This document shows, piece by piece, positions 9,290 through 41,267 of a DNA stretch of 64,000 nt. The notes below the pieces were generated by a model that had not been told where the DNA came from, made no database searches, and saw only the letters and a list, made by a program, of their open reading frames with translations. Where the stretch lies: the NCBI GenBank assembly GCA_900018345.1, contig FCNA01000020.1, positions 1 to 64,000 of the forward strand, written 5' to 3'. This DNA comes from Clostridiales bacterium CHKCI006 (GTDB taxonomy: Bacteria; Bacillota_I; Bacilli_A; Erysipelotrichales; Coprobacillaceae). Position numbers and translations under genes: made by a program. How positions within the stretch are numbered: position 1 is the first letter of the stretch; each line of letters opens with the position of its first letter.

Positions 9290-10273
9290 TTATTTTTTTG
9301 CATCATCAAAGTAGCTTCCCCGGTAATTCTTAGGCGCTACCCCATATTTTTTCTTAAAGGCCGCCGCAAAATTGCTGGGCTTTCCATATCCAACAATCGC
9401 GGCAATTTCACTTACATTCCAGTCTCCTTCCAAAAGCAACTGTGCCGCCTGTGTTAAACGCTGCTCAATAATATATTGATGGATTGGCATACCGTAAAAT
9501 GATGAAAAACCGCGTGTCAATTTCGTTACGCTCAAATGTACCAAACGGGATAATTCTTCACATGAGGGGGCAAATGCAAGCTGACTGTCTATAATCCGTT
9601 TTGCCTCCATAATGGCAGTCCTTTCGGTCTTAGACATAGAAATGTTTTTGCCCATCAAAATATCTAATTCAAGTACTTCTCCCAGATAAATAGACAATAA
9701 TTCCAGTAATTTGCCATCCAAATACAAATAACCCAATCCACCACGATATTGCGTAAAACGGCTCGTCTCCGCTAAAAGCTGTTCCATGACGGGTGTTACT
9801 GGAACTTTAGAAATTCCGTTGAGAAGTTTCTTTTCATAAGCAGTTACCTCCTGCCCGTCAAAGTAATCTGCGAGGAGATGAGAGAAATAAGGAATGGGGA
9901 TTTTTATGCTCTTGAATGAGAAATTGCTGTCTTTCTTGTAACAGATATATTCTGTTCCCCCATGCCCAGCATAAATGCAGGACTCATTCTTCTGAATAGT
10001 GACAGAACGCTGTTCGTCCATAATCTCCCAGGAAATCCCGTCATTCAAGCAAAAAATGATTTGCATATATTCCTTACTGACAGGGCCTTGCACATTCATA
10101 TCTGCCTGGTAGCACATTTGCCAGTCCGAAAGAATAACTCCATGTTTGATCTTAGTTTGAGCAATTCTTCCTCTCCCTATGTCAGATGGAATATCCATCG
10201 AGATTGTCTGGGGAGAATTTGCTATGAGGTCATTATATAATTTGCTAAGATAGTGGCTTCCATGTGTCATCAT
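9290..10273 (-). CDS. AraC-family transcriptional regulator
   Basis: A 327-residue protein. The N-terminal two-thirds is a sensing domain of unknown ligand (region with QMCYQADMNVQGPVSKEYMQ). The C-terminal about 100 residues is a double helix-turn-helix of the AraC type (APSCEELSRLVHLSVTKLTR, then LEGDWNVSEIAAIVGYGKPS and FAAAFKKKYGVAPKNYR). GGAGG precedes an ATGATG start. In Yersinia, an AraC regulator (YbtA) with YbtPQ-like genes responds to the siderophore, so this gene probably activates the downstream uptake operon. A promoter with a dyad operator lies just upstream. Confidence 0.88.
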   Translation of the reverse strand: MMTHGSHYLSKLYNDLIANSPQTISMDIPSDIGRGRIAQTKIKHGVILSDWQMCYQADMNVQGPVSKEYMQIIFCLNDGISWEIMDEQRSVTIQKNESCIYAGHGGTEYICYKKDSNFSFKSIKIPIPYFSHLLADYFDGQEVTAYEKKLLNGISKVPVTPVMEQLLAETSRFTQYRGGLGYLYLDGKLLELLSIYLGEVLELDILMGKNISMSKTERTAIMEAKRIIDSQLAFAPSCEELSRLVHLSVTKLTRGFSSFYGMPIHQYIIEQRLTQAAQLLLEGDWNVSEIAAIVGYGKPSNFAAAFKKKYGVAPKNYRGSYFDDAKK

Positions 10274-25615: not shown

Positions 25616-26329
25616 CTTTCAATCAGATACCTGCTCTCAATGAGTTAAGGGTAAGCACATAGCGACATATCGCTGCACGATCATCAAAAACTGGCAAGTG
25701 GTAAAAGGACTGCTGGATGCTTCAAAAATGGGACTTTTCATTGTCTGGCAGGGTCTGTCAAACATTATCGGGACTCCCTAGCTGAAATATCATGCAGCAT
25801 AGTGTAGAATGACAATGACGGTAGTCCAGCTGATCCATTTGGCTTTTTCCATTATTTTCCATATCCCATCCCATATGGATCATCGTCTTTCATGTCACTT
25901 TTGAACAGCAAGATCATCCCTGCAATGGTGTCCGTGAGTCTCTTTTATATGCCATCCTATGCATGGTCAGATAGAATGATGAAGCAAAAACCAAAGTGGA
26001 AGTTGATTTTAGGAAAGAGATACTTTTTTACCTATTTAGGGTTTATTAAGGATAAATTTCTCTTAAAACGGTTTCAATCCCTTTATTTCAGAATCAAGCG
26101 TTACACAAAGAAAAAGATTTTATTTTACAAAATAATGATATTTTTAATAAAAGTAGTATAGAAAAATACAACTATCTTTATAAAAAACATTGATTTTTTC
26201 AAGCAACAATATTTCATTTTAGACATAAATGTGGTATATTAATGACGTGGAGATTTTTCACAGGATGGATTGAATGCTTTGAGTCGATGGAGCATGTAAT
26301 TAACTGGTAGTGAAGAGAGAGTGGTATCT
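25616..26329. other. 714-bp gap before loaP
   Basis: No convincing gene. A short open stretch near 25,670-25,790 (IIKNWQVVKGLLDASKMGLF) ends at TAG and looks like decayed coding DNA. The frame at 25,892-26,161 has no ribosome site and low-complexity Lys/Phe/Ile content. The last about 150 bp are AT-rich and should contain the loaP promoter (candidate -10 TATATT near 26,236). Confidence 0.35.
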
Positions 26330-26824
26330 TTGAACTGGTACATATTATTTGTTTTTTCAAATAGAGCGAAGAAAATACGTGATTTATTGATCTCAAATAA
26401 CATTGAATCCTTTATCCCACTTTACGAATATTATCATCGGAGCACCAAAAGCTTACAATTAAAGCCCCTGTTTCCGAACTATCTCTTTGTGAAAACACGC
26501 ATGGAGATCGGTGAGTTTTACGACTTTTTAAGAACCTTGAGCGAGAAAAGTAATAGCTTAATCAAGCTGTTAGACAAACCGGATGTGTCGGCTTTGAAAC
26601 AGACAGAGATTCAAATGCTCGAACATCTGATGGATCCTACCTATATTGTCAGGATGTCGATCGCTTATCTTGAAAATCGCAAAGCAATCATTGTGAAAGG
26701 ACCTTTAAAGTTCTTTCAGGATAATATCGTTAAAGTAGATAAACATGATCGGGTTGCCTATTTAGACCTTGTCTTTATGGAGCATCGGATCAAGCTGGGG
26801 TTGCAGTTAATAAGAAGAGAATAG
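26330..26824 (+). CDS. loaP: LoaP-type NusG paralogue (processive antiterminator)
   Basis: About 164 residues with a NusG N-terminal domain (NWYILFVFSNRAKKIRDLLI, FIPLYEYYHR, LKPLFPNYLFVKTRM) and a C-terminal KOW-type segment (AIIVKGPLKFFQDNIVKVD, HDRVAYLDLVFMEHRIKLGL). LoaP proteins bind RNA polymerase and a hairpin in the nascent leader, letting polymerase pass terminators in long biosynthetic operons. I chose TTG 26330 as start because it gives the family-like MNWY start and GAGAG lies about 9 bases before; GTG 26321 is the alternative. No ATG start is available, so expression may be kept low. The leader just downstream fits a LoaP target. Confidence 0.82.
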   Translation: MNWYILFVFSNRAKKIRDLLISNNIESFIPLYEYYHRSTKSLQLKPLFPNYLFVKTRMEIGEFYDFLRTLSEKSNSLIKLLDKPDVSALKQTEIQMLEHLMDPTYIVRMSIAYLENRKAIIVKGPLKFFQDNIVKVDKHDRVAYLDLVFMEHRIKLGLQLIRRE

Positions 26825-26908
26825 TCTAAGGAGAATGGTTTACCGCCCTTAGATTGAGACTTGGACATCGTCGACTTTGCATGGGTAGGGGAGACTATGC
26901 CCTTTTTT
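26825..26908 (+). promoter_or_regulatory. Candidate LoaP-responsive leader: hairpin followed by terminator-like element
   Basis: TCTAAGG (26825-26831) pairs with CCTTAGA (26847-26853) as a stem-loop directly after the loaP stop. Thirty bases on, GGGTAG (26883-26888) pairs with CTA..CCC (26895-26902) before TTTTTT (26903-26908), a weak intrinsic terminator. The hairpin-then-terminator order before the biosynthetic genes is what LoaP systems use. The pairings are seen; the role is inferred. Confidence 0.55.
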
Positions 26909-26988
26909 GTTTTGAAGCCATTAATTCCTTCTAATTGTACCATCGGTTGACAAGCGCATGAATTACCGATGGACGAGGAGTGATCAAG

Positions 26989-27312
26989 ATGAAACTAAAA
27001 GATGATTTAATATTACGTGAAGTCGCGGGACAGTATGTGATTGTCCCGGTTGGTAAGAGAGTGCAGGAAGTCACATCACTGGTTTATATATCCAAATCCG
27101 CCGCTTACCTCTGGGATTACATGAAAGACCATGAATTCACGGTAGACGATCTAGTCCAGAAGATTCTGGAACATTATGTCGGTGTAACGGAAGAAGTTGC
27201 CCGCAAAGATATCGAAGGCTATATCAAACTATTGACGGATAACTTTATTATCGATGATGGTAAAATTAGAGGTCGTAACTTTGTGCGAATCAAAAATCCG
27301 GAGATGAAATAA
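26989..27312 (+). CDS. PqqD-like peptide chaperone (RiPP recognition element)
   Basis: A 107-residue PqqD-family protein: three beta strands (LILREVAGQYVIVPVGKR, SLVYISKSAAYLWDYM) and three helices (EFTVDDLVQKILEHYVGV, ARKDIEGYIKLLTDNFII). In RiPP pathways such a domain binds the leader of the precursor and presents it to the radical SAM enzyme. ATG 26989 is chosen over GTG 26980 because GAGGAG has 8-base spacing to it. Its last base overlaps the first base of the radical SAM gene, so the two products are made together. Confidence 0.88.
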   Translation: MKLKDDLILREVAGQYVIVPVGKRVQEVTSLVYISKSAAYLWDYMKDHEFTVDDLVQKILEHYVGVTEEVARKDIEGYIKLLTDNFIIDDGKIRGRNFVRIKNPEMK

Positions 27313-28439
27313 TGGCTTACGAGTTTGAACCTGCCTGTCGGCGTATGGAGTGGCTGGATCCCTTCTATAAACAGGTATGGGAGAAAGCTTGCGCAGACGC
27401 AATCCCAATCTCAGGTACTTTCGAAATAACCCCTAGATGTAATTTCAGTTGTCGGATGTGTTATGTCCATTTAAAAGAAGATGAGATCTCCAAACATGGA
27501 AGAGAAATGTCAGCTCAAGAATGGATCGATCTAGCCAAACAGGCCAAAGAGATGGGAACAACCTGGTTATGCATTACTGGTGGTGAACCTCTCATGCATC
27601 CGGAATTTGAAACCATCTGGAAAGAAATATCCAAAATGGGTTTTTTCATTACCCTCCAAACCAATGGTGCACGCATTCCCCAATTCCAATCCCTATTTGA
27701 AGAATGCCCACCACGGGCTGTAAAGATTACTCTTTATGGCACCAGCGATGAAACCTACGAAAAAGTCTGTCGTATCAAAAATGGCTTTACCTTAGTTCAT
27801 AATGGAATCATGCTGCTTAAACAGATGCATATTCCCGTTGAACTCGTCAGTACGATCATCCAGCAAAACTTTGATGATATGCAGAAAATGGCTTTCTACG
27901 CCTATATGATGCAAGTCCCATGGGCAAGCACCGGTGGGATCCGGGCTTCTTTAAGAGGTGCCGATACGCACGTCGAAGAACTCAGAGTTCACGACAAAAA
28001 CGAAGAAAGTCAAAAGCAGCAAATCAAACATTATCTGGAACACCCCATCAATATTGAAAGAAAACCATGTACCTACTGTAAAGACTATCGTCTCGGGTAC
28101 TGGATTACATGGGATGGTTATGTCAGGTTCTGCAGTTTCATGAATGAACCTAACATCTCTATCCACAATCAAACATTTAAAGACGCCTGGCAACAGTTGG
28201 TCGATTATGAAGACAACTTAGACTGGCCAGACGAATGTAAGACTTGTGAAGTTTCCAGTGTTTGTTTCAAGTGTGTAGCAACACTTGCAACAAATTCAGG
28301 ATCAGTGACACAAGTCAATCCTTCCTACTGTAACAAAATCAAAGCGTACTTAAAACAAGTCAAAGAAGAATTACAGCAGGAAAAACAAGAACAAGAAATA
28401 AAACAAACCAATAAACAAGAAAACGAAAAGAAAGATTAA
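27312..28439 (+). CDS. Radical SAM/SPASM peptide-modifying enzyme
   Basis: A 375-residue enzyme. The radical SAM cluster motif C43xxxC47xxC50 (RCNFSCRMC) is followed by ITGGEPLMHPEF (SAM-binding GGE) and a TIM-barrel core. From about residue 250 a SPASM region holds extra Cys for auxiliary Fe-S clusters: CTYCKDYRLGYW, RFCSFMNEP, DECKTCEVSSVCFKC and PSYCNK. SPASM enzymes beside PqqD proteins form C-C, C-S or C-O crosslinks or epimers in ribosomal peptides. The last about 25 residues are a Gln/Glu/Lys/Asn tail of no known function. Probable substrate: the 128-residue protein encoded 12 bp downstream. Confidence 0.92.
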   Translation: MAYEFEPACRRMEWLDPFYKQVWEKACADAIPISGTFEITPRCNFSCRMCYVHLKEDEISKHGREMSAQEWIDLAKQAKEMGTTWLCITGGEPLMHPEFETIWKEISKMGFFITLQTNGARIPQFQSLFEECPPRAVKITLYGTSDETYEKVCRIKNGFTLVHNGIMLLKQMHIPVELVSTIIQQNFDDMQKMAFYAYMMQVPWASTGGIRASLRGADTHVEELRVHDKNEESQKQQIKHYLEHPINIERKPCTYCKDYRLGYWITWDGYVRFCSFMNEPNISIHNQTFKDAWQQLVDYEDNLDWPDECKTCEVSSVCFKCVATLATNSGSVTQVNPSYCNKIKAYLKQVKEELQQEKQEQEIKQTNKQENEKKD

Positions 28440-28451
28440 GGGGGAAGAAAT

Positions 28452-28838
28452 ATGCCTAATGGAGGTAGTTATGTAAAAAATCCTGGGTATGACCCAAATG
28501 AAATTGAACAATATTCTACAGTACAAGCATATACAATCTCAGGAAATAGTAGACCTATTCCATCCGGTGCATCGATTGTTCGTGGTATTTACTATATGTG
28601 GGATGACAATGGATTTACTGGTAACGGATGGATGTATAATGTTCAATGTGGGCCAACCAATATGTACCCGGGATTTACAAGAGATCAGGATGTTGCTGAT
28701 TATGTAGCTGAAAAGGGAAATTTAGATGCTGTATTTGCACACTGGGCTCAAAATTACACATTAGAAGGTTGGCACAATTTTTATATGGCAGTATATGTTA
28801 ATTCTGGTTGCATGAACGTTGATCGTAGTGATTCATAA
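28452..28838 (+). CDS. Candidate RiPP precursor / radical SAM substrate (aromatic- and Asn-rich)
   Basis: A 128-residue protein without signal peptide or membrane segment, behind AGGGGGAAG. It is unusually rich in aromatics (12 Tyr, 4 Trp, 4 Phe) and Asn (13), with only two Cys (66, 120). Six of its Asn sit exactly three residues after an aromatic: Y7-N10, Y13-N16, W50-N53, F55-N58, W60-N63 and W98-N101. It ends in Ser (VDRSDS). No known family is recognised. Its place between the SPASM enzyme and a kinase/exporter pair makes it the best substrate candidate. It is long for a precursor, so an accessory protein or self-modified enzyme remains possible. Confidence 0.75.
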   Translation: MPNGGSYVKNPGYDPNEIEQYSTVQAYTISGNSRPIPSGASIVRGIYYMWDDNGFTGNGWMYNVQCGPTNMYPGFTRDQDVADYVAEKGNLDAVFAHWAQNYTLEGWHNFYMAVYVNSGCMNVDRSDS

Positions 28839-28840
28839 TA

Positions 28841-29623
28841 ATGGATTATTCAATTATTCATGCGAAGATAAAACTAGACAGAAAAAGGAATGAGTGGGGT
28901 TTATTTGAAGAGGTTCCATTAGTTAAATCTGATATTCAATTGTTTTGTTCTGCTCATTTTGATTTGATTTATGGATTAAACTTCTACAATCTCCAGGACA
29001 CTAACTCTCATCTTGTCATGAATGATACTGACTTGATGGTTGTGAATGAAGATTGGACGAAAGCCAATATTATTCGAATGGACCATCCTGAGAGTTTTGA
29101 TGCATTTACGATGCAGTTATTTTATACGCATGCGGTTCAAAAACACATGATTCAGGTACATAGTTCCTTGGTTGAATATAATGGATATGGCGTGATGTTT
29201 TTAGGTCCTTCGGGGATCGGTAAGACCACGCAGGCTGAATTGTGGAATCAGTATTTAGATGCCTTGATTATTAATGGCGATTGTGTTTTTGTAGAAGATA
29301 AAGGAGAAGAGTTCATAGGTTGGGGAACTCCCTGGCATGGCTCTTCACCTTATTGTGAGAATACGAGTGTCCCTGTGAAGGCATGGGTTGTGCTGAAGCA
29401 GGGAACTGAAAATAGTCTTCGACGTTTGGAAGGCTTTGAAATGGTTTCTGAGGTGAGTCAGAACATTATTTATCCAATGTGGTTAGAAAATGGGGCAGAG
29501 TTAGCTCTGGAGACATTGGATCATGTATTGAAGGGGATACCGGTATATGAGCTGGTAAATCGTGCTGATGAAGAGTCAGTGATGATGGTAAAGCAGGCGG
29601 TTTTTGGTAATGAAGAAGATTAA
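28841..29623 (+). CDS. HPr-kinase-like serine kinase of a peptide cluster
   Basis: A 260-residue protein with an HprK/PEPCK-type P-loop (FLGPSGIGKTTQAELW, about residues 121-136), preceded by IQVHSSLVEYNGYG and followed by ALIINGDCVFVEDKG and GTPWHGSS, the usual block order of this fold. It is not HPr kinase itself: the N-terminal sensor domain of HprK is missing. Related kinases in lasso peptide clusters phosphorylate a C-terminal Ser of the peptide. The neighbouring 128-residue protein ends in Ser, so a similar role is possible. It starts 2 bp after that gene and overlaps the exporter gene. Confidence 0.8.
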   Translation: MDYSIIHAKIKLDRKRNEWGLFEEVPLVKSDIQLFCSAHFDLIYGLNFYNLQDTNSHLVMNDTDLMVVNEDWTKANIIRMDHPESFDAFTMQLFYTHAVQKHMIQVHSSLVEYNGYGVMFLGPSGIGKTTQAELWNQYLDALIINGDCVFVEDKGEEFIGWGTPWHGSSPYCENTSVPVKAWVVLKQGTENSLRRLEGFEMVSEVSQNIIYPMWLENGAELALETLDHVLKGIPVYELVNRADEESVMMVKQAVFGNEED

Positions 29624-31373
29624 ACATATATGGAAAAGGATCCAGGAGGGCAGGCTGAAGGAACTGCTTGATCAGCTTGCCTGGATGGGGATCTATGTCA
29701 GAAAGTATTGGATCTTAATTGGTATTTATACTTTTTTGATGACATCTGGCTCTTTATTGAGTTTAGGGTCAACGGTGGTCTCGCGTGACTTAGTGGATGC
29801 GGTCACCGGACAGAATGCATTGAATATTGTTTATGTTCTGGCTCTCTATATCGGTACAGGTGTTGGACAGATTTTTATCAATGTGATACGTTCACGGATT
29901 TCTTTAAAGATATCTTTGAAGATTCAGACAGAGATCAGAGAGGATGTCTTTAAACAGATCATGGAGACGGATTGGGAGTCTCTATCGGATTATCGCACAG
30001 GTGATTTATTGTATCGAATTAATGGAGATGCGGGAATGGTCGCCAATAGTATTTTGACGTTCATTCCAACCGTCATCTCCGTTTTTATTAGTTTTGGCAG
30101 TGCGTTTTGGATCATGGTTCAAAATGATCCGATCATGGCAGTGATTGCTTTAATGGGTGCGCCGATCACCCTGGTCACTTCGCGTTATTCGATGCGTAAG
30201 ACAAGGGAGTATATGCGCAAGAATCAAGACTTTTCAAGTAATAAGATGTCGTTTGATCAGGAGACGTTTAATAACCTGCAGATGATCAAAGCCTTTGGTT
30301 TAGTGCCGCACTTTATTGAGAGTTTCCATGATGTTCAGCAGGAATCGATGCGTATCTCGTTGAATCAAAATAAGTTCCAATCGATGAGTACGATCATCAC
30401 TTCGTTAGTGGGACAGGTGGTCGGCTATGCCTGTTATGGGTATGCCCTGTTTCGTTTATGGACGGGCCATATTTCTTATGGAACGATGACGATGTTTGTC
30501 GGAATGGCGGGTTCGTTACGTGGCTCATTTAGCTCGATCGTGAATCTGGCGCCGACGTTAGTCAGAAGCTGTATTAATGCCGGACGCATCATTGAGGTCA
30601 TTACACTGCCTAGAGAAAAGGTAGAAGACGATCCGAAGGCGAAGGAGATCTTAGATGCTTCTAAGACTAAGGGTGTTTATATTGAAATGCATGATGTGAG
30701 CTTCTGGTATAAGGAAGGGAAGCCGGTCTATGAACATGCTTCTTTCTATGCGAAACCTGGCGAAATTATTGGTTTGCTGGGACCTTCGGGTCAGGGAAAA
30801 ACAACGACCTTGAATCTGTTTTTAGGCCTGTTTCATATTCGTTCAGGCAGTCTTGAGATCGGTAACCCGGGTGGTGAGAAAATGGATGTTTCTTCGGCAA
30901 CCCGTTGCTTATTTAGCTATATTCCGCAGGGGAATACCTTATTTAGCGGTTCGATTGCGGATAATGTCGGAATGGTGAAGCCAGGTGCCAGTGAAGAGGA
31001 GATCATTGAAGCTTTAAAAGCAGCCTGTGCCTGGGAGTTTGTGGAGGATCTTGAAGAAGGCATCCATACTCATGTCAGGGAATTGGGAAGACGTTTTTCA
31101 GAAGGACAAAAACAGCGCTTATCGATTGCCCGTGCTTTACTGGCAAAACGTCCGATCATGCTTTTAGATGAAGCGACAAGCGCCCTGGATATGGCGACGG
31201 AACGCAAGGTCTTAGGCAGTATTCTACAATATGATCCTCTAAGAACGCTGATTGTAGCGGCACATCGTCCCTCGGTCTTTTCCATGTGTGACCGGGTCTA
31301 CCGGATCGAACAGGGAACGATTCGCGAGGTGGATCGCGAAGAAGTGAATTTATTTTTAGAGGGGAAAGCATAA
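29610..31373 (+). CDS. ABC exporter (permease-ATPase) of the peptide cluster
   Basis: About 587 residues: six membrane segments in the first 320, then an ATPase with Walker A (GPSGQGKTT, near residue 392), signature FSEGQKQRLSIARALL instead of LSGGQ, and Walker B (IMLLDEATSALD). There is no N-terminal C39 peptidase domain, so it does not cut a double-Gly leader itself. ATG 29610 lies inside the kinase gene's end (14-base overlap), showing tight coupling. It most likely exports the cluster's product; a dedicated protease would have to be encoded elsewhere. The hairpin at its end faces the convergent gene. Confidence 0.88.
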   Translation: MKKIKHIWKRIQEGRLKELLDQLAWMGIYVRKYWILIGIYTFLMTSGSLLSLGSTVVSRDLVDAVTGQNALNIVYVLALYIGTGVGQIFINVIRSRISLKISLKIQTEIREDVFKQIMETDWESLSDYRTGDLLYRINGDAGMVANSILTFIPTVISVFISFGSAFWIMVQNDPIMAVIALMGAPITLVTSRYSMRKTREYMRKNQDFSSNKMSFDQETFNNLQMIKAFGLVPHFIESFHDVQQESMRISLNQNKFQSMSTIITSLVGQVVGYACYGYALFRLWTGHISYGTMTMFVGMAGSLRGSFSSIVNLAPTLVRSCINAGRIIEVITLPREKVEDDPKAKEILDASKTKGVYIEMHDVSFWYKEGKPVYEHASFYAKPGEIIGLLGPSGQGKTTTLNLFLGLFHIRSGSLEIGNPGGEKMDVSSATRCLFSYIPQGNTLFSGSIADNVGMVKPGASEEEIIEALKAACAWEFVEDLEEGIHTHVRELGRRFSEGQKQRLSIARALLAKRPIMLLDEATSALDMATERKVLGSILQYDPLRTLIVAAHRPSVFSMCDRVYRIEQGTIREVDREEVNLFLEGKA

Positions 31374-31395
31374 AAAAGGTCGCTTATTAGCGACC
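31372..31395 (-). terminator. Terminator for the nucleotidyltransferase gene
   Basis: GGTCGC (31378-31383) pairs with GCGACC (31390-31395); on the minus strand it is followed by six T. It overlaps the stop codon of the minus-strand gene. Confidence 0.75.
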
Positions 31396-32586
31396 GAAGA
31401 TGTCATATTGACGATAGAGCTTTGCGCGTTGTTTGGCGATGCTCAGAGATTCATTGACATCGAAATCTTTGTGAAGAATTTTACGGAAGATCCGACGATA
31501 ACGTTTGCACCAGTAGATAGGCAGGCGTTTTGGATGTTCTTTCAGAACAGGATAAACTTTCTGCATTTGTCCCAGGCTTGGGAAGAGTAAGTAACCAATC
31601 TGGGAAAGACGGTTCCCTTCGCTTCTGGAGACCATGGAATTGGTAAAAGCGGAGCTATAGGCCTGCGTCGCACTGAAACTCCCTGTACAGCCGGAGACAA
31701 GTAAGTTTTCCATTAAAGGCTCGAGCTTTTGTTTGAACTTTGGCTTTTCGTAGGGGAAATGCAGATAAGTGTCCCCACATTGCATCAGGGCATCATAGAG
31801 CTTGGTGATATGCATGTCCTCGAGTGCCTGATCAATGAATGCCATATCGATCTTGTCGGCATAGGCTTTCTTGTACAAGAGCAGATCCAGCAGCTGTCTA
31901 ACCCCCACACCTGCACTTAAGAAGTGCTTGTAGAGGTGGAAGATCAAAAACAGATAATGTTCGGTTGGCTGTAAGGTATAGAAAGGCTCGCTGTAGTAAG
32001 GATGATCGCAGGAGTCCAGAAAATAGCGATTCATGCGTTGATGTAATTCATGATTTGTACCAAAAGGGTGGATATGCAGCTCAAGAGTCAGATGATGGTT
32101 AGTGAAGTTGATGGTTTGAGAATGTTTGAGGATGGTTTCATCCACCTCAGCACGCGCCTGGCAGATATAGCCGTTAGCGGTGAGGATCTTGGCATAGCGC
32201 GGATAATCCTCTGTTTTGATCAGGAGATCTTCATCGGCAGAACAGCGATAGTCCGGTTGTGGATAAGTCTCACGACAGATGCGTCCTTTGAGGACCAAAG
32301 GCTTTAAACCATCCTGTTTGAAGCATTCATTGATGCGTTCGAGTTCGTGATCATATTGTTGCTGGGTGATGATCTGGCCGATGGCTGAATACCTCATCTG
32401 GGTCTGAATGGCTGGGTCAGCCTGCTTGAAATGATCCAGTTCCCGGCAGCTTTCATAAATCATGGGGATCAGGTGCTGATCCCTGGCTAAAATATAAAGG
32501 GAATCATAGGCGAGGATCTCGTCTATGGGTTCCTGAAAGAAATAATGTCGAATGAGTGCTAAGAAATCAAGCTGATAGGTTTGCAT
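31387..32586 (-). CDS. NTP_transf_5-family nucleotidyltransferase
   Basis: A 399-residue protein of the uncharacterised nucleotidyltransferase family PF14907. The catalytic pattern is PLVLKGRICRETYPQPDYRC followed by the acidic pair ADEDLLIK, then LTLELHIHPFG. Members are frequent in lasso and other peptide clusters, where they are thought to add a nucleotide or act with an HPr-like kinase. It is convergent with the exporter gene and so is not in the same transcript, but the association with PqqD, kinase and exporter makes a shared role likely. Full-length for the family. Confidence 0.82.
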   Translation of the reverse strand: MQTYQLDFLALIRHYFFQEPIDEILAYDSLYILARDQHLIPMIYESCRELDHFKQADPAIQTQMRYSAIGQIITQQQYDHELERINECFKQDGLKPLVLKGRICRETYPQPDYRCSADEDLLIKTEDYPRYAKILTANGYICQARAEVDETILKHSQTINFTNHHLTLELHIHPFGTNHELHQRMNRYFLDSCDHPYYSEPFYTLQPTEHYLFLIFHLYKHFLSAGVGVRQLLDLLLYKKAYADKIDMAFIDQALEDMHITKLYDALMQCGDTYLHFPYEKPKFKQKLEPLMENLLVSGCTGSFSATQAYSSAFTNSMVSRSEGNRLSQIGYLLFPSLGQMQKVYPVLKEHPKRLPIYWCKRYRRIFRKILHKDFDVNESLSIAKQRAKLYRQYDIFGR

Positions 32587-32660
32587 TTATATCCCTCTTT
32601 TCGATACCATTATAACAAATTTTCTTTTTCTGTCTAGTATAAAATGTGAGGAGTGATGAT

Positions 32661-33482
32661 ATGCGTTACATACGTTTGGCCGTCATTCTGGTCTTTTTGG
32701 TGGGGCTTGGCATCAAGGGAACGGCAGAGGTTCGCAGTCGTTTTTTTACCGATCACAGCTATCCTGTCATTACCAGTACCAGCGAGACCATCAGTGTTCC
32801 CTGCGCTTACAGTGATGAAGAGCTGCTGGCGGGACTGAGTGCGACCGATGAAAAAGATGGTGACATTACGGCCAATATCTTAGTGGGGGAAATCTCTCGA
32901 TTTAAGGAAATAGGGACTTCAGAAGTGACTTATGTGGTTTTTGATTCAGATGGTCATTCATCGACTTATAGTCGTCAGGTGACTTTTTCGGATTATCAGT
33001 CCCCACGTTTCAGTCTAGATTCGGCCTTAGTTTTTCGAGAAGGCGAAGGCGGAGATGTGATGGAATCGATTCACGGTTCGGATCTGCTGGATGGGGATAT
33101 CAGCGGAACGCTCAGTTTGGATAGCAGTGATGTAAACTATCAGATCAGTGGGGATTATGCGATCACGGTTTCGATGTATAACAGTTATGGGGATGAGGTC
33201 GAGATCACATTGCCGGTTCATGTGCTGGCAGCAGCTGATCAGCAGTTGGATATCGCGCTTTCCAGTTATCTGGTTTACCTTTCAGCCGGTGAAAGCCTGA
33301 ATCCTAGAGATTATCTTGAGGATGTGCTGACTAGCAGCGGCGAGAGCCTGGGCACAGGTATCGTGAGTGTGGATAGCTCGGGGTTAGATACGAGTACACC
33401 GGGAGTCTATCAGGTCGCTTATACAGCCAGCAGCCGGGATGGCCGGACAGGTCATAGCTGGCTGACGGTAGTTGTGGAATAA
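32661..33482 (+). CDS. Exported Ig-like (DUF5011-type) protein, first copy
   Basis: Start at ATG 32661 behind GAGGAG. The 273-residue product has an N-terminal membrane signal-anchor (YIRLAVILVFLVGLGIKG) and extracellular DUF5011/cadherin-like repeats: LSATDEKDGDITANIL, DLLDGDISGTLSLD, LDTSTPGVYQVAYTASSRDG. It precedes two BY-kinase genes, and a paralogue (36,375-37,208) follows them. Such proteins may sense or organise the cell surface. An upstream GTG at 32646 would overlap the ribosome site and is less likely. Confidence 0.82.
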   Translation: MRYIRLAVILVFLVGLGIKGTAEVRSRFFTDHSYPVITSTSETISVPCAYSDEELLAGLSATDEKDGDITANILVGEISRFKEIGTSEVTYVVFDSDGHSSTYSRQVTFSDYQSPRFSLDSALVFREGEGGDVMESIHGSDLLDGDISGTLSLDSSDVNYQISGDYAITVSMYNSYGDEVEITLPVHVLAAADQQLDIALSSYLVYLSAGESLNPRDYLEDVLTSSGESLGTGIVSVDSSGLDTSTPGVYQVAYTASSRDGRTGHSWLTVVVE

Positions 33483-33496
33483 GGGGGGGGATCACA

Positions 33497-34903
33497 ATGG
33501 AATTTCAAATTGATGATATTGATTTTCGCAGCATCGTATTAGATCTAATTAAAAATATCTGGGTCATCATTTTAGCGGTTCTGGCGGTTCGCATGGGGAT
33601 CTCGGGTTATTATGAGCTGACTTATGAACCCCAATACACATCCACAGCGACCCTGGCAGTCACCGCCCGTGGCAGTTCCAATGGTTCTTACAGCTCTTTG
33701 ACAACGGCGATGAACATGGCCGATGTCTTCAGTGAAGTGTTTCAAAGTGATGCCTTGAAGAAAATGATCGAAGCGGATATCGGGGAAAGCAATATCCAGG
33801 GGACGATCAATTCTTCCATCATCTCACAGACCAACCTGATTACGCTGACTGTCACTTCGGATACACCGGCCCACGCTTATCAGATGATTCAGTCAGCTTT
33901 GGATAATTATTCCAGCGTTTCAGATTATTTGTTCTCGAATGCTTCTTTGCAGATGGTCAGAGAACCCAATGTGCCCTACGGTCCTAGCAATTATGTCAAT
34001 TATTTGCGTATCCAAAGAATGGCGACTTTAGCGGCGGGGGGACTGACGGCAGCCGTGATTGTCCTGGTTTCGATCCTGAGACCGACAGTGAAACGAAAGA
34101 GCTCAGCCAGAAGGCAACTGGATGGGCGGATCCTGGCGACCATTCCTTATGAACGTAAATATAAATCGATTCATGAATATCTACATAAACCAAAGAAATC
34201 GGTGCTGATTTCCTCGCGACTGCTGAGTATGTCATTTACCGAATCCAATCGTAAGCTCGCGACTTTGATTGAAAGACATATGACCCGTCATCAACAGAAA
34301 GTACTGCTGGTTTGTTCGGTGGCCGAGAATGAAGGAAAATCATCGGTGGCCAGTAACATTGCACTCGCTTTGGCTGATAGGCACAAAAAGGTCTTGCTGG
34401 TGGATGGTGACTTAAGAAAACCGGCCCTGCATCGTATCTTTGATTTGCATGATCAGGTCAAATATAGTTTATCTGAATATTTACTTGGTCAGTGCAGCTT
34501 TGAACAGGTCATTACGGAAGTGCCCAATGGCCTGCAGATCATTTGTCAGACCAGAGGCTTGAACAACTCCACGAAATATATCATGTCGAAAAACATGCTG
34601 GACTTTATCTTGAAATGTCGCGAAAACTATGATCTGATCGTTCTGGATACGCCGCCGATCGGTGCCGGGGTGGATGTCGAAGCTATCTTAAACTATGGGG
34701 ATACATCCATTATGACCGTGCGTCAGGACTGGAGCGAGATTGGTGCAATCAACGATTTCAGTGATTTATTGAAACAGAACGACAAGGAATTCATGGGCTT
34801 TGTCCTCAATGCATTCCATGAAAATATCTTGATTGAAAAGAGCTACGGACAATATCCTTATCAAAATTATCAATCACGCAGCGTGCGAAAAGCGGAGGAA
34901 TAA
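33497..34903 (+). CDS. Wzz/BY-kinase fusion (tyrosine autokinase), copy 1
   Basis: A 468-residue protein. A Wzz-type domain with two membrane helices (IWVIILAVLAVRMGISGYY; LAAGGLTAAVIVLVSIL) brackets an extracellular loop. The cytoplasmic BY-kinase has a P-loop (SVAENEGKSSVASNIALAL, near residue 275), Walker A' (LLVDGDLRKP) and Walker B (LIVLDTPPIG). The tail has only a few Tyr (KSYGQYPYQNY). BY-kinases control polysaccharide chain length and export by tyrosine phosphorylation. The canonical GEGKS is altered to NEGKS. It lies 14 bp after the Ig-like gene and 3 bp before a second copy. Confidence 0.88.
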   Translation: MEFQIDDIDFRSIVLDLIKNIWVIILAVLAVRMGISGYYELTYEPQYTSTATLAVTARGSSNGSYSSLTTAMNMADVFSEVFQSDALKKMIEADIGESNIQGTINSSIISQTNLITLTVTSDTPAHAYQMIQSALDNYSSVSDYLFSNASLQMVREPNVPYGPSNYVNYLRIQRMATLAAGGLTAAVIVLVSILRPTVKRKSSARRQLDGRILATIPYERKYKSIHEYLHKPKKSVLISSRLLSMSFTESNRKLATLIERHMTRHQQKVLLVCSVAENEGKSSVASNIALALADRHKKVLLVDGDLRKPALHRIFDLHDQVKYSLSEYLLGQCSFEQVITEVPNGLQIICQTRGLNNSTKYIMSKNMLDFILKCRENYDLIVLDTPPIGAGVDVEAILNYGDTSIMTVRQDWSEIGAINDFSDLLKQNDKEFMGFVLNAFHENILIEKSYGQYPYQNYQSRSVRKAEE

Positions 34904-34906
34904 CGT

Positions 34907-36388
34907 ATGGATGAAAAAGAATTACAGCAGGAAGAAGAAGTAGAAATTGATTTATGGGTCCTTTTCCGTGACTTTTTCATGGGATGCGTCAAATTCTGGT
35001 GGTTAGTCGTTTTGTTGGCAGTGATTGGTGCCGCTTCGATGCTGTTTAAGGATACGGGGTTTTATACGCCGATGTATCGCTCCCAGGCCACCTTTACGGT
35101 GACAACCAACACTTCCGAAGACAGCAATGCGAGTTATAATTTCTATTATGACAGCGCCACAGCACAGCAGTTATCCCTGACCTTTCCTTATATCTTGAGC
35201 AGTGATCTTTTGACGGATGCTATCATGGAAGACATGGGCACGACGTCGATCAATGGGTCTATCTCTGCTTCGGTCATTTCCGATTCAAATATGATCACGA
35301 TGAGTGTTATTTCCAGTGATCCGCAAGCCGCGCATGATATTTTGGAATCGGCCATTAAAGTGTATCCGGATGTGGCACGCTTTGTTATCGGGCCCACGCG
35401 CTTCAATATGATCGATGCTCCGACTTTACCAACAGAGCCTTATAACCAGCCGCATTATACGGTGAACTTTGCCAAAGGGGCTTTGATCGGGGCAGGCATC
35501 GGCTTCGCTTTTATCATCGTTTATGCGTTCTTGCGCAAAACGGTGCATAAAGAAGAGGAGCTGCGGCAGAGCATTAACTTGAAGTGTATTGCCTCGATCC
35601 CTAATTTGAAACAGAAGCGACGCAAGAAACAAAGAAAGCAGCCCTTGCCATCGATCTTAGATCGCCGCATCGACCCTTATTTCATTGAAAATATGGACAG
35701 TTTGTATTTGCGTATCATGCGTGAGATGAATGAACGAAAAGGCAAAACGCTCTTGATCACAAGCACGGTTTCCGGGGAAGGAAAATCCTTGATTTCACTG
35801 AACCTGGCTTACGAATTAGCTAAAAATAAGCGTCATGTCCTCTTAATTGATGCAGATCTGCGTAAACAGGATCTGCGCGAACAGCTCCATTTACCAACGG
35901 ATGGAGAGGGACTTGAAAGTCTGCAGGATGGTGTTGAGGCTGCTGTGAAGTCAATCAATTATTTGGAAGATAGCGGTATCTACTTTTTAGGTGGCAGCCA
36001 TATCAGTAAAGATCCATCAGGACTGCTCTCCAGTAAAGAGATGGATACATTCATGAAATATATGAAGGAATACATGGATTTTGTCATTATCGATGCGCCA
36101 CCATGTGAAGGCTTTGAAGATGCGTTGATCCTGGAAAACTATGCAGATGGGGTGCTCTATATCGTCAAACAGGATTATGTGCAGAAGCGTCGCATCATCG
36201 ACAGTATCTCCATGTTGGCAGAGACGCAGGCGGATCTGATTGGTTATGTCTTCAATGGTGTCTCTCATATGATGCGTGGTTATGGTTATGGACACTATGG
36301 CAGCTATGGGTACTACCAGCGCTATGGCCGTTATGGTAAGTCCTATGGTTACGGACATGACCAGGAGAAAGCCAATGCTGCAGAATAA
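34907..36388 (+). CDS. Wzz/BY-kinase fusion (tyrosine autokinase), copy 2
   Basis: A 493-residue paralogue of the preceding protein. The Wzz domain has helices at FWWLVVLLAVIGAASMLF and FAKGALIGAGIGFAFIIVY. The kinase has TSTVSGEGKSLISLNLAYEL, LLIDADLRKQ and FVIIDAPPCE. The C-terminus is extremely rich in Tyr and Gly (GYGYGHYGSYGYYQRYGRYG), the classic autophosphorylation cluster. It has more Tyr than copy 1, suggesting different roles. Its last codons overlap the second Ig-like gene. Confidence 0.9.
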   Translation: MDEKELQQEEEVEIDLWVLFRDFFMGCVKFWWLVVLLAVIGAASMLFKDTGFYTPMYRSQATFTVTTNTSEDSNASYNFYYDSATAQQLSLTFPYILSSDLLTDAIMEDMGTTSINGSISASVISDSNMITMSVISSDPQAAHDILESAIKVYPDVARFVIGPTRFNMIDAPTLPTEPYNQPHYTVNFAKGALIGAGIGFAFIIVYAFLRKTVHKEEELRQSINLKCIASIPNLKQKRRKKQRKQPLPSILDRRIDPYFIENMDSLYLRIMREMNERKGKTLLITSTVSGEGKSLISLNLAYELAKNKRHVLLIDADLRKQDLREQLHLPTDGEGLESLQDGVEAAVKSINYLEDSGIYFLGGSHISKDPSGLLSSKEMDTFMKYMKEYMDFVIIDAPPCEGFEDALILENYADGVLYIVKQDYVQKRRIIDSISMLAETQADLIGYVFNGVSHMMRGYGYGHYGSYGYYQRYGRYGKSYGYGHDQEKANAAE

Positions 36389-37208
36389 AAAAGGGCTGCT
36401 TGGTATTCTGGCTGTTCTATTGCTAGGTTTGCTTTTTCTGGCGGCTAGACAACTCGAAAGTCAGACCGGCAGTCAACATGACACGTTAGGTGAAGATGCG
36501 ACCATTACCGTAGCGGATGAGTCCCTGACTTATGATGGTTCCGGTCTGATCGATTATTTAGAGGGTGTTACTGCCAGTGATGCCGATGGAACCGATCTTT
36601 CCGATCAGATGAACTATATTATTGTCAGCGATGGCAATCAGAAATATGTGCAGTACAGCGTGAGCGGTCAAAATGGGCAGGTGGTCTATGCCAGAAGACC
36701 ATTAGTCTTGGAAAATTATCAGGGTCCTAGTCTGGAAGTGAGCGATCCATTACGCTTTGATGCAGAAGCATTAAATCAGTTGGTGCCCTATCTTGCTGAA
36801 CAAGGGGATCTGAAAGCTTTGGATGGTTTTGGCCAGGATCAGACATCTTCCGTATCCTATCGGCGTACAAAAGAGGGCACCGGACGATATCTGATTCAGT
36901 TTACCTATACGAATGCTTTTCAGGATAGTGTATCTCAAACAGTGAATGCTTATATCAGTGGAGAAGTCTCCGATCCAAGTGTTGAACTTGTCCAGAATTC
37001 GGTCGTACTCAGTGTCGGCTCTTCCTTTGTACCAACTGATTTCATCTTATCCGCCAATGACGGGACACAATCGGCAGTGGATCGTGTTCAGATCAGTAAT
37101 TACGTGAATACGGCTGTACCAGGAAAATATCGGGTCGTCTATGAACTGACTTCTGCCGATGGAACGGCTTATACGTCTTGCGCACTGGAAGTGGAGGTGC
37201 AGGGATGA
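36375..37208 (+). CDS. Exported Ig-like protein, second copy
   Basis: Start at ATG 36375, inside the end of the kinase gene, behind AGGAG. The 277-residue protein has a signal-anchor (GLLGILAVLLLGLLFLAARQ) and extracellular repeats matching those at 32,661-33,482 (VTASDADGTDLSDQM, VVYARRPLVLENYQGPSLE, VNTAVPGKYRVVYELTSADG). The order exported protein / kinase / kinase / exported protein looks like a duplicated pair. Its stop overlaps the phosphatase start (ATGA). Confidence 0.82.
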   Translation: MLQNKKGLLGILAVLLLGLLFLAARQLESQTGSQHDTLGEDATITVADESLTYDGSGLIDYLEGVTASDADGTDLSDQMNYIIVSDGNQKYVQYSVSGQNGQVVYARRPLVLENYQGPSLEVSDPLRFDAEALNQLVPYLAEQGDLKALDGFGQDQTSSVSYRRTKEGTGRYLIQFTYTNAFQDSVSQTVNAYISGEVSDPSVELVQNSVVLSVGSSFVPTDFILSANDGTQSAVDRVQISNYVNTAVPGKYRVVYELTSADGTAYTSCALEVEVQG

Positions 37209-37924
37209 TCGATCTGCATATCCACATTCTGCCGGGAGTCGATGATGGAGCCAAGACGGTCTATACTGCTTTGCAGATGGCTGAAATGGCCGAGGACACG
37301 GGGACAGATATTATGGTTGTCACGCCTCATGCCAATATGCCCGGGATCTATGAGAATACTTATGATGATCATTATAAAGAAAAGTTTCGACTATTGGAAC
37401 GAACCTTTCAGGAACAGCACTTACAGATTCAACTGATTCAGGGAATGGAGATCTTTGTGACCGATGATGTGGTGGAAAAGTTAGATCGACATGAATTGAT
37501 TACGCTTAATCATACGCGGGTGCCGTTAGTCGAATTTGACTTCAATGAGCATTTTGATTATATGCAAACCATGCTTCAGACCTTGATTGATCACCACTAT
37601 CAGCCCCTGTTAGCGCATCCTGAGCGATATCGGACCTTCCGTTATGAACCAGAGAAAATGGCTTTGCTCAAACAGATGGGAGTGCTGATTCAGGTGAATA
37701 AGTCGAGTGTCTTAGGACATTTTGGCCGTTCAATTCAAAAATGTGCGGATTTCTTCTTGAATCATGGTTGGGTCGACGTGGCGGCAAGCGATGCGCATGG
37801 TGTGCGCAGTCGAACACCGGAACTCGATGACCTCTATTACTACTTGGATGCAGAATACGGCTTGGCCGAGACATTACTGGAGGACAATCCTAGACGTATA
37901 CTGTCACCCGCCAAAGTGAAGTAG
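37205..37924 (+). CDS. CpsB/YwqE-type PHP tyrosine phosphatase
   Basis: A 239-residue PHP-fold phosphatase: IDLHIHILPGVDDGAKT at the start, VVTPHAN, the LEFDF-like VPLVEFDFNEHFDY, LAHPERY and the final ASDAHGVRSR hold the metal-binding His/Asp/Glu. It removes phosphate from BY-kinase tyrosines using Mn2+. It overlaps the upstream gene by four bases, closing the five-gene phosphorylation operon. Full-length; no glycosyltransferase or flippase genes follow. Confidence 0.92.
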   Translation: MIDLHIHILPGVDDGAKTVYTALQMAEMAEDTGTDIMVVTPHANMPGIYENTYDDHYKEKFRLLERTFQEQHLQIQLIQGMEIFVTDDVVEKLDRHELITLNHTRVPLVEFDFNEHFDYMQTMLQTLIDHHYQPLLAHPERYRTFRYEPEKMALLKQMGVLIQVNKSSVLGHFGRSIQKCADFFLNHGWVDVAASDAHGVRSRTPELDDLYYYLDAEYGLAETLLEDNPRRILSPAKVK

Positions 37925-38132: not shown

Positions 38133-38855
38133 ATGCAAAAGCAATTGGTGTTTCAAAGATATGAATTAAAATTTCTGCTGTCAGAAGATCAAAAAGAAAG
38201 ACTGATGACCTATTTTCCTTGCTATATGCGACCAGATCCGTATGGGTTGACCACGATCCGTAATCTCTATTATGATTCTGATCATTATCGTTTGATTCGA
38301 CGTTCGATCGAAAAGCCGGTCTATAAGGAAAAATTGAGTCTGCGTGGGTATGGGAATATTCTACCAGACAGTCCGGTGTTTGTCGAACTCAAGAAAAAGT
38401 ATAAAAAGATCGTCTATAAACGCCGACTCAGTATGTCGGAAAGGGAGGCGACCGCCTGGCTGGCTGGGATCAGTTTACCATCGGATCGATCGCAGATTGC
38501 CTGTGAGATCGAATATGTGCTGCATTACTATGAATCATTACATCCGGTCGTCTTCTTAGCTTATGATCGCAGTGCTTATTTTGGCAAAGAGGATGCGACT
38601 TTCAGAATCACTTTTGATAAGAATATTGTGTGTCGTCAATCCGATCTTTCCCTAATATCTGCAGTATACGGGGCGTGTCTACTGCCCAAAGGACAGGTTT
38701 TGATGGAAATAAAAAGCATGGGAGCTATTCCTCTCTGGCTGGTTCATTTCTTATCGTAAGAAAAACTATATCAGACTTCGTTTTCCAAATATGGTACCGC
38801 TTACCAGCGACTGATCCTGCCAAAATGCCAGAAAGAGGTGTTGCAGTATGCCTGA
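38133..38855 (+). pseudogene. VTC-domain (polyphosphate polymerase-like) gene with an in-frame TAA
   Basis: The VTC domain is clear: RYELKFLLSEDQKERLM, IRNLYYDSDHYRLIR, EKLSLRGYG, VFVELKKKYKKIVYKRR, CEIEYVLHYY, RSAYFGKEDATFRITFD and VLMEIKSMGAIPLWLVHFLS. Translation then meets TAA at 38757-38759, but the same frame continues with EKLYQTSFSKYGTAYQRL to a natural TGA at 38853. The SFSKYG motif beyond the stop is conserved in bacterial VTC proteins, so the 208-residue product is probably defective. Known VTC domains polymerise ATP phosphate into polyphosphate. AGGAGG precedes the ATG. The end overlaps the DUF4956 start. Confidence 0.82.
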
Positions 38856-39543
38856 GGGGTTATTTAGAGGCTTGTTTGATACCGATCTGACAACGGTGAT
38901 CAGTGTCTCTGATTTCTTATTGTGTTTGTTTGTTTCATTAGTATTAGGACTGATCATGAGCCTCTCTTATATGTATCGTACCCGTTATACAAAAAGCTTT
39001 GTCGTGGCCTTAGCCATTTTACCAACCGTTGTTTGTGTTGTCATTATGATGGTCAATGGTAATGTAGGTGCCGGTGTGGCCGTGGCCGGTGCGTTTAGTC
39101 TGGTGCGTTTTCGTTCGGTACCGGGAACAGCTAAAGAAATATGTGCGCTGTTTTTAGCGATGGGAGCCGGTCTGATCACTGGTATGGGCTATCTTGGGTT
39201 TGCCTTACTGTTTACCCTGATTTTAAGTGGGATGTTCGTGCTTTATCATCGTTTGGATCTGGAGACAACCAAGAACAGTCATCGTTATCGTACCTTAAGC
39301 ATTACGATTCCTGAAGATCTGGATTATTATGCTGTTTTTGATGACATCTTCCAGCAATACACGCAAGACTGTGAGCTCATTAGTGTGAAAACCACGAATA
39401 TGGGAAGTCTCTTTCATTTGACTTATCATATCACATTAAAAACGACAGGACAGGAAAAGGCGATGATCGACGCTTTACGCTGTCGTAACGGTAATTTAGA
39501 AATCATGCTGTGCCAGCAGGAAACGACGGTGCTTGAGTTATGA
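38848..39543 (+). CDS. DUF4956 membrane protein
   Basis: A 231-residue protein with about four membrane segments in the first 130 residues (FLLCLFVSLVLGLIMSLSYM; FVVALAILPTVVCVVIMMV; GFALLFTLILSGMFVLY) and the family's VAVAGAFSLVRFRSVPGTAKE motif, then a cytoplasmic domain. DUF4956 proteins almost always sit beside VTC-domain genes and may move or use the polyphosphate-like product. Its ATG lies within the last codons of the VTC reading frame, with AGAGGTG upstream, and its stop overlaps the next gene's ATG. Confidence 0.88.
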   Translation: MPEGLFRGLFDTDLTTVISVSDFLLCLFVSLVLGLIMSLSYMYRTRYTKSFVVALAILPTVVCVVIMMVNGNVGAGVAVAGAFSLVRFRSVPGTAKEICALFLAMGAGLITGMGYLGFALLFTLILSGMFVLYHRLDLETTKNSHRYRTLSITIPEDLDYYAVFDDIFQQYTQDCELISVKTTNMGSLFHLTYHITLKTTGQEKAMIDALRCRNGNLEIMLCQQETTVLEL

Positions 39544-41267
39544 GAAAGAAGATCATATGTGTATTCATCGTACTGTGCCTGTCACTCACAGCCTGAGCGA
39601 AGTCGACGCAGGACGCTCCCCCTACCGACAATACCGCTTCTGTTGAAGTGGACTTTGCGAGTACGGATGAAGAAATGTTTACCAATCGAGATCTGGATGC
39701 TTCTTATGATCCGATTACCTGTATCCAAGTGGCTTTCAATGGCGATCAGATCACCGCGACGTCGGACAGTGTTCAGATTAGCGGCACAACCATCACCCTG
39801 ACCGAAGAAGCCACGTATCTCATATCAGGTACGTTGGATGATGGCATGCTGATCATCGATGCCGATGAGAACGCCAAGCTTCAATTAGTCTTGAATGGTG
39901 TGGATATCCACAGTCAAACCATGGCACCCCTGTATATACGAACAGCTGATAAGGTGTTCATCACGCTGGCTGATGGAACGACCAATACATTATCGAACGG
40001 CGGGACGATCACTTCTCCATCCGGACATGGTATTGTCTGTAAGGATGATCTTGTCATAACCGGCGGGGTGGTATCGATCAAATCTGCAGCGCATGGAATC
40101 GATGCCAATGACAGCGTACGCATGACAGGGAATGTTCAGTTGGCCATTCAGGCAGGGAAGGATGGGATCCATGTGGACAATAGTGAGGATGCCTCATTGG
40201 GATTTCTTTATATCTCCCAGGGTCAGCTAAACATTGAGGCAGAAGGAGATGGCGTGAGTGCGAGTGCATCTATACAGATTGAAGATGGTGACTTTGAGAT
40301 ACTTGCCGGTGGAGGGAATACCAATGGCGAACAGGAAAACTCAGAGAACTGGGGAAATTTTGGAGGGCGTGGTGAAGAGCTGAACCCCATCGATCCTCAT
40401 GACCATTCCTCTAATCGAGACGATGCAATGGTAAGACCGACGGCCAATATTCTGATGACAACAACAGAAGAAAACGGATCCAGCATGAAAGGCTTCAAAG
40501 CAGGAAGTGGCCTTTTGATCAACGGTGGGACCTTCAATATTGACTCTGCCGATGATGCTTTGCATACCAATACGTCTATGTATATCAGCGCCGGAATATT
40601 CGAGTTAGCCAGCGGAGATGATGCCTTGCATGCCGATGAAAGTTTGCTTATTCTAGATGGCAGTATTCATGTTTCCACATGCTATGAGGGAATTGAAGGA
40701 TTAACAGTGGTGATCGAGGGTGGCAGCATTGATCTGGTCGCTACGGATGATGGGATCAATGCCGCTGGTGGTGTCGATACGAGTGGCTCTGCAGGCGGAC
40801 GAGATGGTATGTTTGGTGGTAATCCAACATCCTCTAATGGTAATGGCAGTATTCAGATTTCTGGCGGAACTATTCAGATTCAGGCCAGCGGGGATGGAAT
40901 TGATGCCAATGGAACCCTGGTCATCTCCGGTGGTTCGACAACGATCATTGGAGCGACACAAGGGGATACCTCCATTTTGGATTACGATACATCTGCCACC
41001 ATCACAGGAGGAACCTTCATAGGAACAGGGGCATCCGGGATGACCCAAACTTTCAGTAATTCCACTTGTGGTGTTGTAACGGTTGATGTAGGGAATCAGT
41101 CCGCCGGAACGGAAATCGGCTTGTATGATGCAGATGGGAATACCATTCTCACTTATACACCGGAAGAAGATTTTCAAATGCTCATTTTAAGTAGTCCTCA
41201 ACTGGCTTTGCAGGAAAGTTATACCTTAATGGTCGGTACAACGCGTCAAACCGTGCGTACCAGTTAA
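39540..41267 (+). pseudogene. Cthe_2159/DUF4353-like carbohydrate-binding lipoprotein with TGA at the lipobox Cys
   Basis: From ATG 39540 the frame reads a lipoprotein signal (RKKIICVFIVLCLSLTA) and then TGA at 39594-39596, exactly where the lipobox Cys should be, before continuing as AKSTQDAPPTDNTASVE without further stops. The body is a DUF4353 carbohydrate-binding beta-helix (ITLTEEATYLISGTLDDGML, LVLNGVDIHSQ, GIDANDSVRMTG, SADDALHTNTS and many similar turns). A single base change (TGC/TGT to TGA) would abolish translation. The downstream frame (from about 39648) has no signal peptide. It completes the VTC-DUF4956 operon. Confidence 0.8.

Follow-up and report, generated by a model that had tools for sequence, protein, structure and literature searches.

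Genes that mature ribosomally synthesised and post-translationally modified peptides (RiPPs) and genes for capsule-type polysaccharides are usually treated separately. Among the former, clusters of the sactipeptide/ranthipeptide type and their relatives (SkfB, PqqE) combine a radical S-adenosylmethionine (SAM) enzyme with SPASM-type cysteines, a PqqD partner, a small substrate encoded beside the enzyme and an ATP-binding cassette (ABC) exporter, and the SynChlorMet cassette (ScmC/D/E/F), to go by its NCBIfam family names, likewise groups HprK-like, PqqD-like and radical SAM/SPASM proteins. Tailored lasso peptides (paeninodin with PadeK/ThcoK, pseudomycoidin with PsmK/PsmN) have PqqD, an HprK-like kinase and sometimes an NTP_transf_5 protein around the peptide; in pseudomycoidin, the kinase and an annotated nucleotidyltransferase jointly place phosphate and hexose on the peptide, at its C-terminal Ser (PMC9266682). 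Here we analysed a stretch of 64,000 nucleotides of Clostridiales bacterium CHKCI006 (assembly GCA_900018345.1, contig FCNA01000020.1, positions 1 to 64,000), hereafter the window, in which genes for a PqqD-like protein, a radical SAM enzyme, a 128-residue protein, an HprK-like kinase and an ABC exporter follow one another ahead of Wzz/tyrosine-kinase genes. We propose, with a probability of about 0.6, that these five genes form a RiPP-type cassette for maturation and export, integrated at the head of a polysaccharide module of the Wzz/tyrosine-kinase kind.

The cassette shares the PqqD partner, the SPASM-type cysteines, the small putative substrate and the exporter with the radical SAM/SPASM clusters, but differs from them in a substrate of 98-151 residues with a single conserved C-terminal Cys, in the fixed presence of the HprK-like kinase and in the Wzz-kinase genes joined to it. 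A reading of the window made from its letters alone (the sequence-only reading) had proposed a possibly undescribed PqqD and radical SAM cluster of RiPP type with the 128-residue protein as the likely substrate, and the analysis supports that proposal: all its open reading frames lie where it had placed them, and the gene order it had seen is confirmed. As it had noted, the five plus-strand genes from pqqD to the exporter overlap or nearly touch (gaps of 2-12 nt), and the exporter has ABC_membrane and ABC_tran domains and no peptidase domain. In the literature searched, which left subscription papers largely outside its scope, no pairing of radical SAM, PqqD and HprK-like genes with polysaccharide or Wzz genes was described. 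The cluster is real, conserved and, as far as that literature goes, undescribed.

The sequence-only reading had staked its case on the same gene order being found in other genomes. The unit was found in about 25 loci from Erysipelotrichaceae, Lachnospiraceae and Oscillospirales, and the order PqqD, radical SAM, small protein, HprK, ABC was seen in more than 20, whose radical SAM enzymes are 56-69% identical to that of the window; because the order recurs in this way, the cassette is not a chance assembly. A scan with the radical SAM enzyme gave 13 loci, 11 of them at 57-64% identity together with a partial locus at 51% (L014) and a remote one at 29% (L015). Whole-genome searches contributed about a dozen further loci: there were 12 strong matches, three already found, in 397 genomes from the family to which L003's genome belongs, two in 394 genomes of the order of L010's genome (one already found), and in the window's own class only two of 296 genomes had a strong match, the window counted. 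Within the close family the gene order is invariable. The convergent NTP_transf_5 gene that the sequence-only reading had seen is indeed present, lying between the exporter and the immunoglobulin (Ig)-like gene in the window and in the same slot in L053, L056 and L124; it lies 5' of pqqD in L010, L012 and L013. In the more distant relatives L059, L074 and L125, the pieces of the cassette and of the polysaccharide module are reordered yet stay together. A plasmid search for the radical SAM enzyme and a phage search for the small protein found nothing.

Judged by their motifs, the three enzymes look active. In the alignment, the radical SAM enzyme has the CxxxCxxC motif (C43/C47/C50) and SPASM-type cysteines in the pattern CX12GX4C, CX2CX5CX2C...C (C256-x12-G-x4-C274; C309-x2-C312-x5-C318-x2-C321; C340), a pattern whose C-terminal part is degenerate in L012 and L013; the Pfam SPASM model itself did not match the window enzyme. 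No curated radical SAM family fits, the sactipeptide and ranthipeptide models all scoring below their own cut-offs, and the nearest solved relatives are SkfB, the sporulation killing factor maturase (E 2e-18), and PqqE (E 1e-11). An assignment to the anti-phage viperin-like enzymes was rejected, the similarity being weak and confined to the N-terminus. For the kinase, residues 102-260 of a model with a pLDDT (predicted local distance difference test) of 89.5 match Lactobacillus casei HprK/P (1jb1; Z 11.5, 3.2 A over 122 aa), with phosphoenolpyruvate carboxykinase (PEPCK), a related P-loop fold, tying as a match; the C-half is thus predicted to have the fold of the HprK/P C-terminal P-loop domain. 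Its His107, Walker A Lys128 and Asp147 are invariant, and so are the KG and DED motifs of the NTP_transf_5 protein.

The 128-residue protein is likely to be, on the features of its sequence, the substrate of these enzymes. Like a RiPP precursor it is small and variable, appears to have a leader at its N-terminus and is encoded beside modification enzymes; it is also rich in aromatic residues (15.6%) and Asn (10.2%), as had been noticed from the letters. The sequence-only reading would have given way had the protein belonged to a known enzyme family, and searches of Pfam, NCBIfam, PHROGs, PADLOC and PDB gave no family (best PHROGs E 0.07); its AlphaFold model, of low confidence (pLDDT 57), fits a non-enzyme. 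In the close family the small gene always sits between the radical SAM and HprK genes. The median pairwise identity of the small protein is 27%, against 60% for the radical SAM enzyme and the exporter, and in an alignment of 24 sequences G54 and C120 are the sole invariant positions, Y21, W50, W60 and W98 being almost invariant. The last Cys lies 2-8 residues from the C-terminus in all 27 small proteins, and a W/Y...G[FIYV][TSI][GNS]..W block, a motif drawn from the same 27 sequences in which it was counted, occurs in 26; shuffling gave expectations of 4.4 of 27 for a Cys within 12 residues of the end and 0.5 of 27 for the block. Given the invariant C-terminal Cys, a thioether cross-link is possible. 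In L120 (12173-12838), an extra PqqD gene 3' of the Wzz-kinase module is directly followed by another small-protein gene with no radical SAM gene, and this pair ties the small protein to PqqD. The distant loci L059, L060, L074 and L125 encode RiPP-like leaders (of the MKK.Y..PE.R...IAASG kind; PEMR...IAASG) in or close to the corresponding position, together with genes that resemble S26-type peptidases by sequence reading. A more distant radical SAM cluster in L060 has two RiPP-like precursors (6646-6900 and 9301-9585) that share one MDENIAASG leader and end in ...CLA.

The small gene is, as alignments of close loci indicate, allelic, hypervariable and replaced block-wise, which the sequence-only reading had overlooked. 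In two Mediterraneibacter species (L004 and L005), the DNA of the 9 kb preceding and the roughly 7 kb following a swapped block of 626-689 bp is 94-98% identical, while the block itself (L004:9077-9702 and L005:9077-9765) is unrelated between the two and consists of precisely the small gene plus roughly the first 100 kinase codons. The small proteins are only 28% identical and the kinase N-halves 21%, against 98% for the kinase C-half, 98% for PqqD and 99% for the exporter. L003 and L006 show a like replacement that runs into the end of the radical SAM gene. In the 22 loci compared, the small protein varies together with the kinase N-half once the radical SAM enzyme and the kinase C-half are controlled for (partial r 0.28; 3 of 2000 permutations), and it shows no such co-variation with the kinase C-half; it also co-varies with the radical SAM enzyme (partial r 0.51).

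The second feature that had been overlooked is the polysaccharide module. The sequence-only reading had bounded the cluster at 26330-32586; its genes do lie there, but the conserved unit of the window reaches to about 37924. Of the loci, 21 lie on contigs long enough to show what comes after the exporter, and in 20 of these an Ig-like gene and two Wzz-kinase genes stand there, with CpsB next in most; in the exception, L055, such a module lies on a separate contig (L119) of the same genome, G480. The gene content and usual order (Ig-like protein, two Wzz-kinase fusions, CpsB phosphatase) are those of Wzz/bacterial tyrosine kinase/CpsB capsule modules, from which this one differs in that its close Ig subtype occurs only alongside the radical SAM cassette. 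Among 250 genomes searched, 10 had a close relative of the Ig-like protein (at least 300 bits), each of them with the radical SAM family as well, whereas weaker relatives (144-298 bits) came mostly from genomes without it. The chance probability of this co-occurrence is about 1e-15 provided that the 250 genomes are among the 397, a figure inflated by physical linkage; because of that inflation, rearranged and unlinked loci are the better evidence, and the association persists in the rearranged L059, L074 and L125 and in the separated loci of G480. In L003 and L070 the module runs on into sugar transferase, glycosyltransferase and acyltransferase genes. On this gene-level evidence, the polysaccharide-type genes belong to the conserved unit.

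Several points weigh against joining a peptide cassette to a polysaccharide module in this way. Close linkage alone could yield much of the co-occurrence of the two, and the window has no glycosyltransferases after its CpsB gene. The small proteins of the window and L005 are 58% identical but their kinase N-halves 25%, so that the matching of substrate and kinase is loose, which weakens the idea that each small-protein type goes strictly with one kinase N-half. The low pLDDT of the small protein may merely reflect a shallow alignment, and no leader protease was found in the close family. The modification, phosphorylation and export of the small protein, like its chemistry, its surface role and its link to the polysaccharide, so far rest on inference.

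The same observations could be read as an antimicrobial RiPP, a bacteriocin whose hypervariability is toxin diversification and whose neighbouring polysaccharide genes are merely mobile surface or competition cargo. A hypervariable peptide predicted to be exported, the radical SAM, PqqD and ABC set, SkfB as the nearest solved relative and the block-wise replacement of alleles would all suit such a system. However, neither an immunity gene nor a leader protease was recognised in the unit, and the fixed presence of the Ig-like, Wzz-kinase and CpsB partners, with co-occurrence also outside physical linkage, makes this reading unlikely.

Regulation differs from locus to locus. The sequence-only reading had placed the window cassette under the control of LoaP, which serves processive antitermination (Bacillus velezensis dfn/mln), which is not borne out in that form. 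As with LoaP, a NusG paralog lies beside a leader hairpin and a terminator, here a weak one, and LoaP is its best-fitting model, but its score on NF033641 (101.8 bits) is below the curated cut-off of 125, compared with 93.5 for the housekeeping NusG of the genome and 188.8 for its two other LoaPs, and it is 28% identical to the bona fide LoaP of the genome and 20% to its NusG. Those two LoaP genes (G000:C31:6603-7103, L081; G000:C4:42826-43326, L082) encode identical proteins and lie 5' of a sugar transferase gene and an RmlA-like gene, respectively. The "leader" in the sequence-only gene order is to be corrected to an RNA element, the hairpin followed by a modest terminator-like one; the genome has no second exact copy of the hairpin, further matches being due to chance (at least one falls within a coding sequence), and the hairpin loop, UUUA, is unlike the published UNCG target (PMC12691694). 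No NusG paralog was found in the other loci, no convincing leader terminator in the other close-family loci and none at the window's site in close relatives, so that the paralog, hairpin and terminator appear to be a feature of the window only and are not conserved with the cassette. In this genome, the paralog probably gates transcription into the cassette through read-through of the leader terminator.

Elsewhere a response regulator (LytTR) and a GHKL kinase lie directly 5' of the cassette (L004, L053), with similar genes in L050 and L052, and L064 and L065 have a SARP-like regulator by sequence reading. In L003 (6812-7087) and L006 (2162-2453), perfect inverted repeats of 26-27 nt with 222 nt between the arms adjoin a tyrosine recombinase gene 5' of pqqD; this element is a probable invertible promoter of the cassette, and the better promoter match within it in L003 points away from pqqD. 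Invertible switches are typical of surface structures. The LytTR/GHKL pairs would also suit a pheromone role, with the modified small protein regulating the polysaccharide operon and being sensed by these upstream two-component systems, and allele variation is typical of pherotypes. We regard this as improbable, since the window and several other loci have no two-component pair, having the NusG paralog, the SARP-like regulator or the invertible element instead, and a protein of this size would make a large pheromone.

A lasso-like peptide is much less probable still. The sequence-only reading had proposed lasso-like tailoring; as in pseudomycoidin, the kinase would then phosphorylate a C-terminal Ser and the NTP_transf_5 protein add a sugar. 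The kinase and NTP_transf_5 pair, the Ser at the end of the window protein and the PsmK/PsmN precedent (PMC9266682) speak for it. The sequences do not support this: a C-terminal Ser, the target of PadeK/ThcoK, ends only 4 of 27 small proteins and, among loci with NTP_transf_5, that of the window alone, so that its phosphorylation was rejected as a general mechanism. Of the His-Lys-Asp-Asp motif of lasso-tailoring kinases (PMC9266682), one Asp, the neighbour of Asp147, is an invariant Gly (16 of 16). Unlike the lasso clusters, the cassette has a radical SAM enzyme and, as the sequence-only reading had itself noted, no lasso cyclase (Asn-synthetase-like) or B2 protease among the Pfam-scanned genes at 24.3-45.4 kb of the window. 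A peptide-derived redox cofactor system such as PQQ, mycofactocin or SynChlorMet is barely credible despite the PqqD and SPASM pair and the weak similarity to ScmF and ScmC, since those models score far under their cut-offs (73 against 400 and 20 against 125 bits), the precursor is hypervariable, an exporter is present and, in contrast to SynChlorMet, there is one radical SAM enzyme, not two.

The features of the window are collected in Table 1. The second Ig-like gene is also present in L051, L053, L056, L119 and L120, and an Rfam search found no RNA family in the window. Downstream of the CpsB gene, positions 38133-41267 hold VTC domain, DUF4956 and Cthe_2159 genes in place of glycosyltransferases.

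Table 1 Cassette, module and regulatory features in the window
Feature	Position	Strand	Evidence
NusG-family specialised paralog, LoaP-like	26321..26824	+	NF033641 LoaP 102 bits vs cut-off 125; NusG model 21 bits
Leader RNA hairpin, loop UUUA, candidate NusG-paralog target	26822..26856	+	fold -11.3 kcal/mol, z -2.6
Terminator-like hairpin and T run preceding pqqD	26882..26913	+	weak hairpin, z -0.7
PqqD-like leader-binding protein	26980..27312	+	Pfam PF05402 E 1.1e-10; kept in all close loci
Radical SAM enzyme with SPASM-type cysteines	27312..28439	+	PF04055 Radical_SAM E 7e-23
128-aa hypervariable small protein, likely precursor/substrate	28452..28838	+	no Pfam/NCBIfam match; alignment and motif counts
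HprK-like kinase, variable N-half, conserved P-loop C-half	28841..29623	+	Hpr_kinase_C E 3e-4 (below cut-off); alignment, model
ABC exporter, no peptidase domain	29610..31373	+	PF00664 ABC_membrane and PF00005 ABC_tran
NTP_transf_5 nucleotidyltransferase-like protein	31387..32586	- (convergent)	PF14907 E 9.5e-42
Promoter-like site of NTP_transf_5 gene	32609..32636	-	11/12 consensus bases, TG extension
Ig-like surface protein specific to module	32646..33482	+	PF16403 E 6e-17; alignment; co-occurrence
Wzz/bacterial tyrosine kinase fusion 1	33497..34903	+	PF02706, PF13614
Wzz/bacterial tyrosine kinase fusion 2	34907..36388	+	PF02706 (weak), CbiA/ParA/AAA_31
Second Ig-like surface protein, start codon uncertain	36276..37208	+	PF16403 E 1e-7
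CpsB/CapC-type tyrosine phosphatase	37178..37924	+	PF19567 E 1.3e-60

If the cassette works as a RiPP-type unit of the polysaccharide module, PqqD would bind the N-terminal leader of the small protein (the Y-x-x-V-x-A region) and pass it to the radical SAM enzyme, which would put a cross-link or similar modification around the W...GGFTGxGW block, the invariant C-terminal Cys or both. By way of its variable N-terminal domain, the HprK-like kinase may recognise the variable part of the small protein and phosphorylate it, in some loci the NTP_transf_5 protein may modify it further, and the ABC exporter would deliver it to the cell surface. There it may act with the Ig-like, Wzz-kinase and CpsB proteins, either setting polysaccharide assembly as a signal or being itself attached to the polysaccharide as a peptide. 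We put forward more tentatively, as a possibility well short of probable, that the small protein is an allelic peptide part of the surface polysaccharide machinery, either joined through a phospho-sugar, a link suggested because the pseudomycoidin kinase and nucleotidyltransferase modify a peptide in this way, or a subtype-specific Wzz/Ig factor, and that it diversifies by cassette exchange together with the kinase recognition domain.

For chemists, the invariant Trp and Cys positions show likely sites of radical SAM modification, and loci in which the substrate and the kinase's recognition half have been replaced together offer a natural swap of specificity that is directly testable. A fixed unit of PqqD, radical SAM enzyme, kinase and exporter with Wzz-kinase and CpsB in unrelated gut bacteria would indicate a peptide that helps to build or control the cell surface, and an allelic exported peptide of this kind, if the tentative proposal is true, would be the peptide analogue of a capsule serotype.

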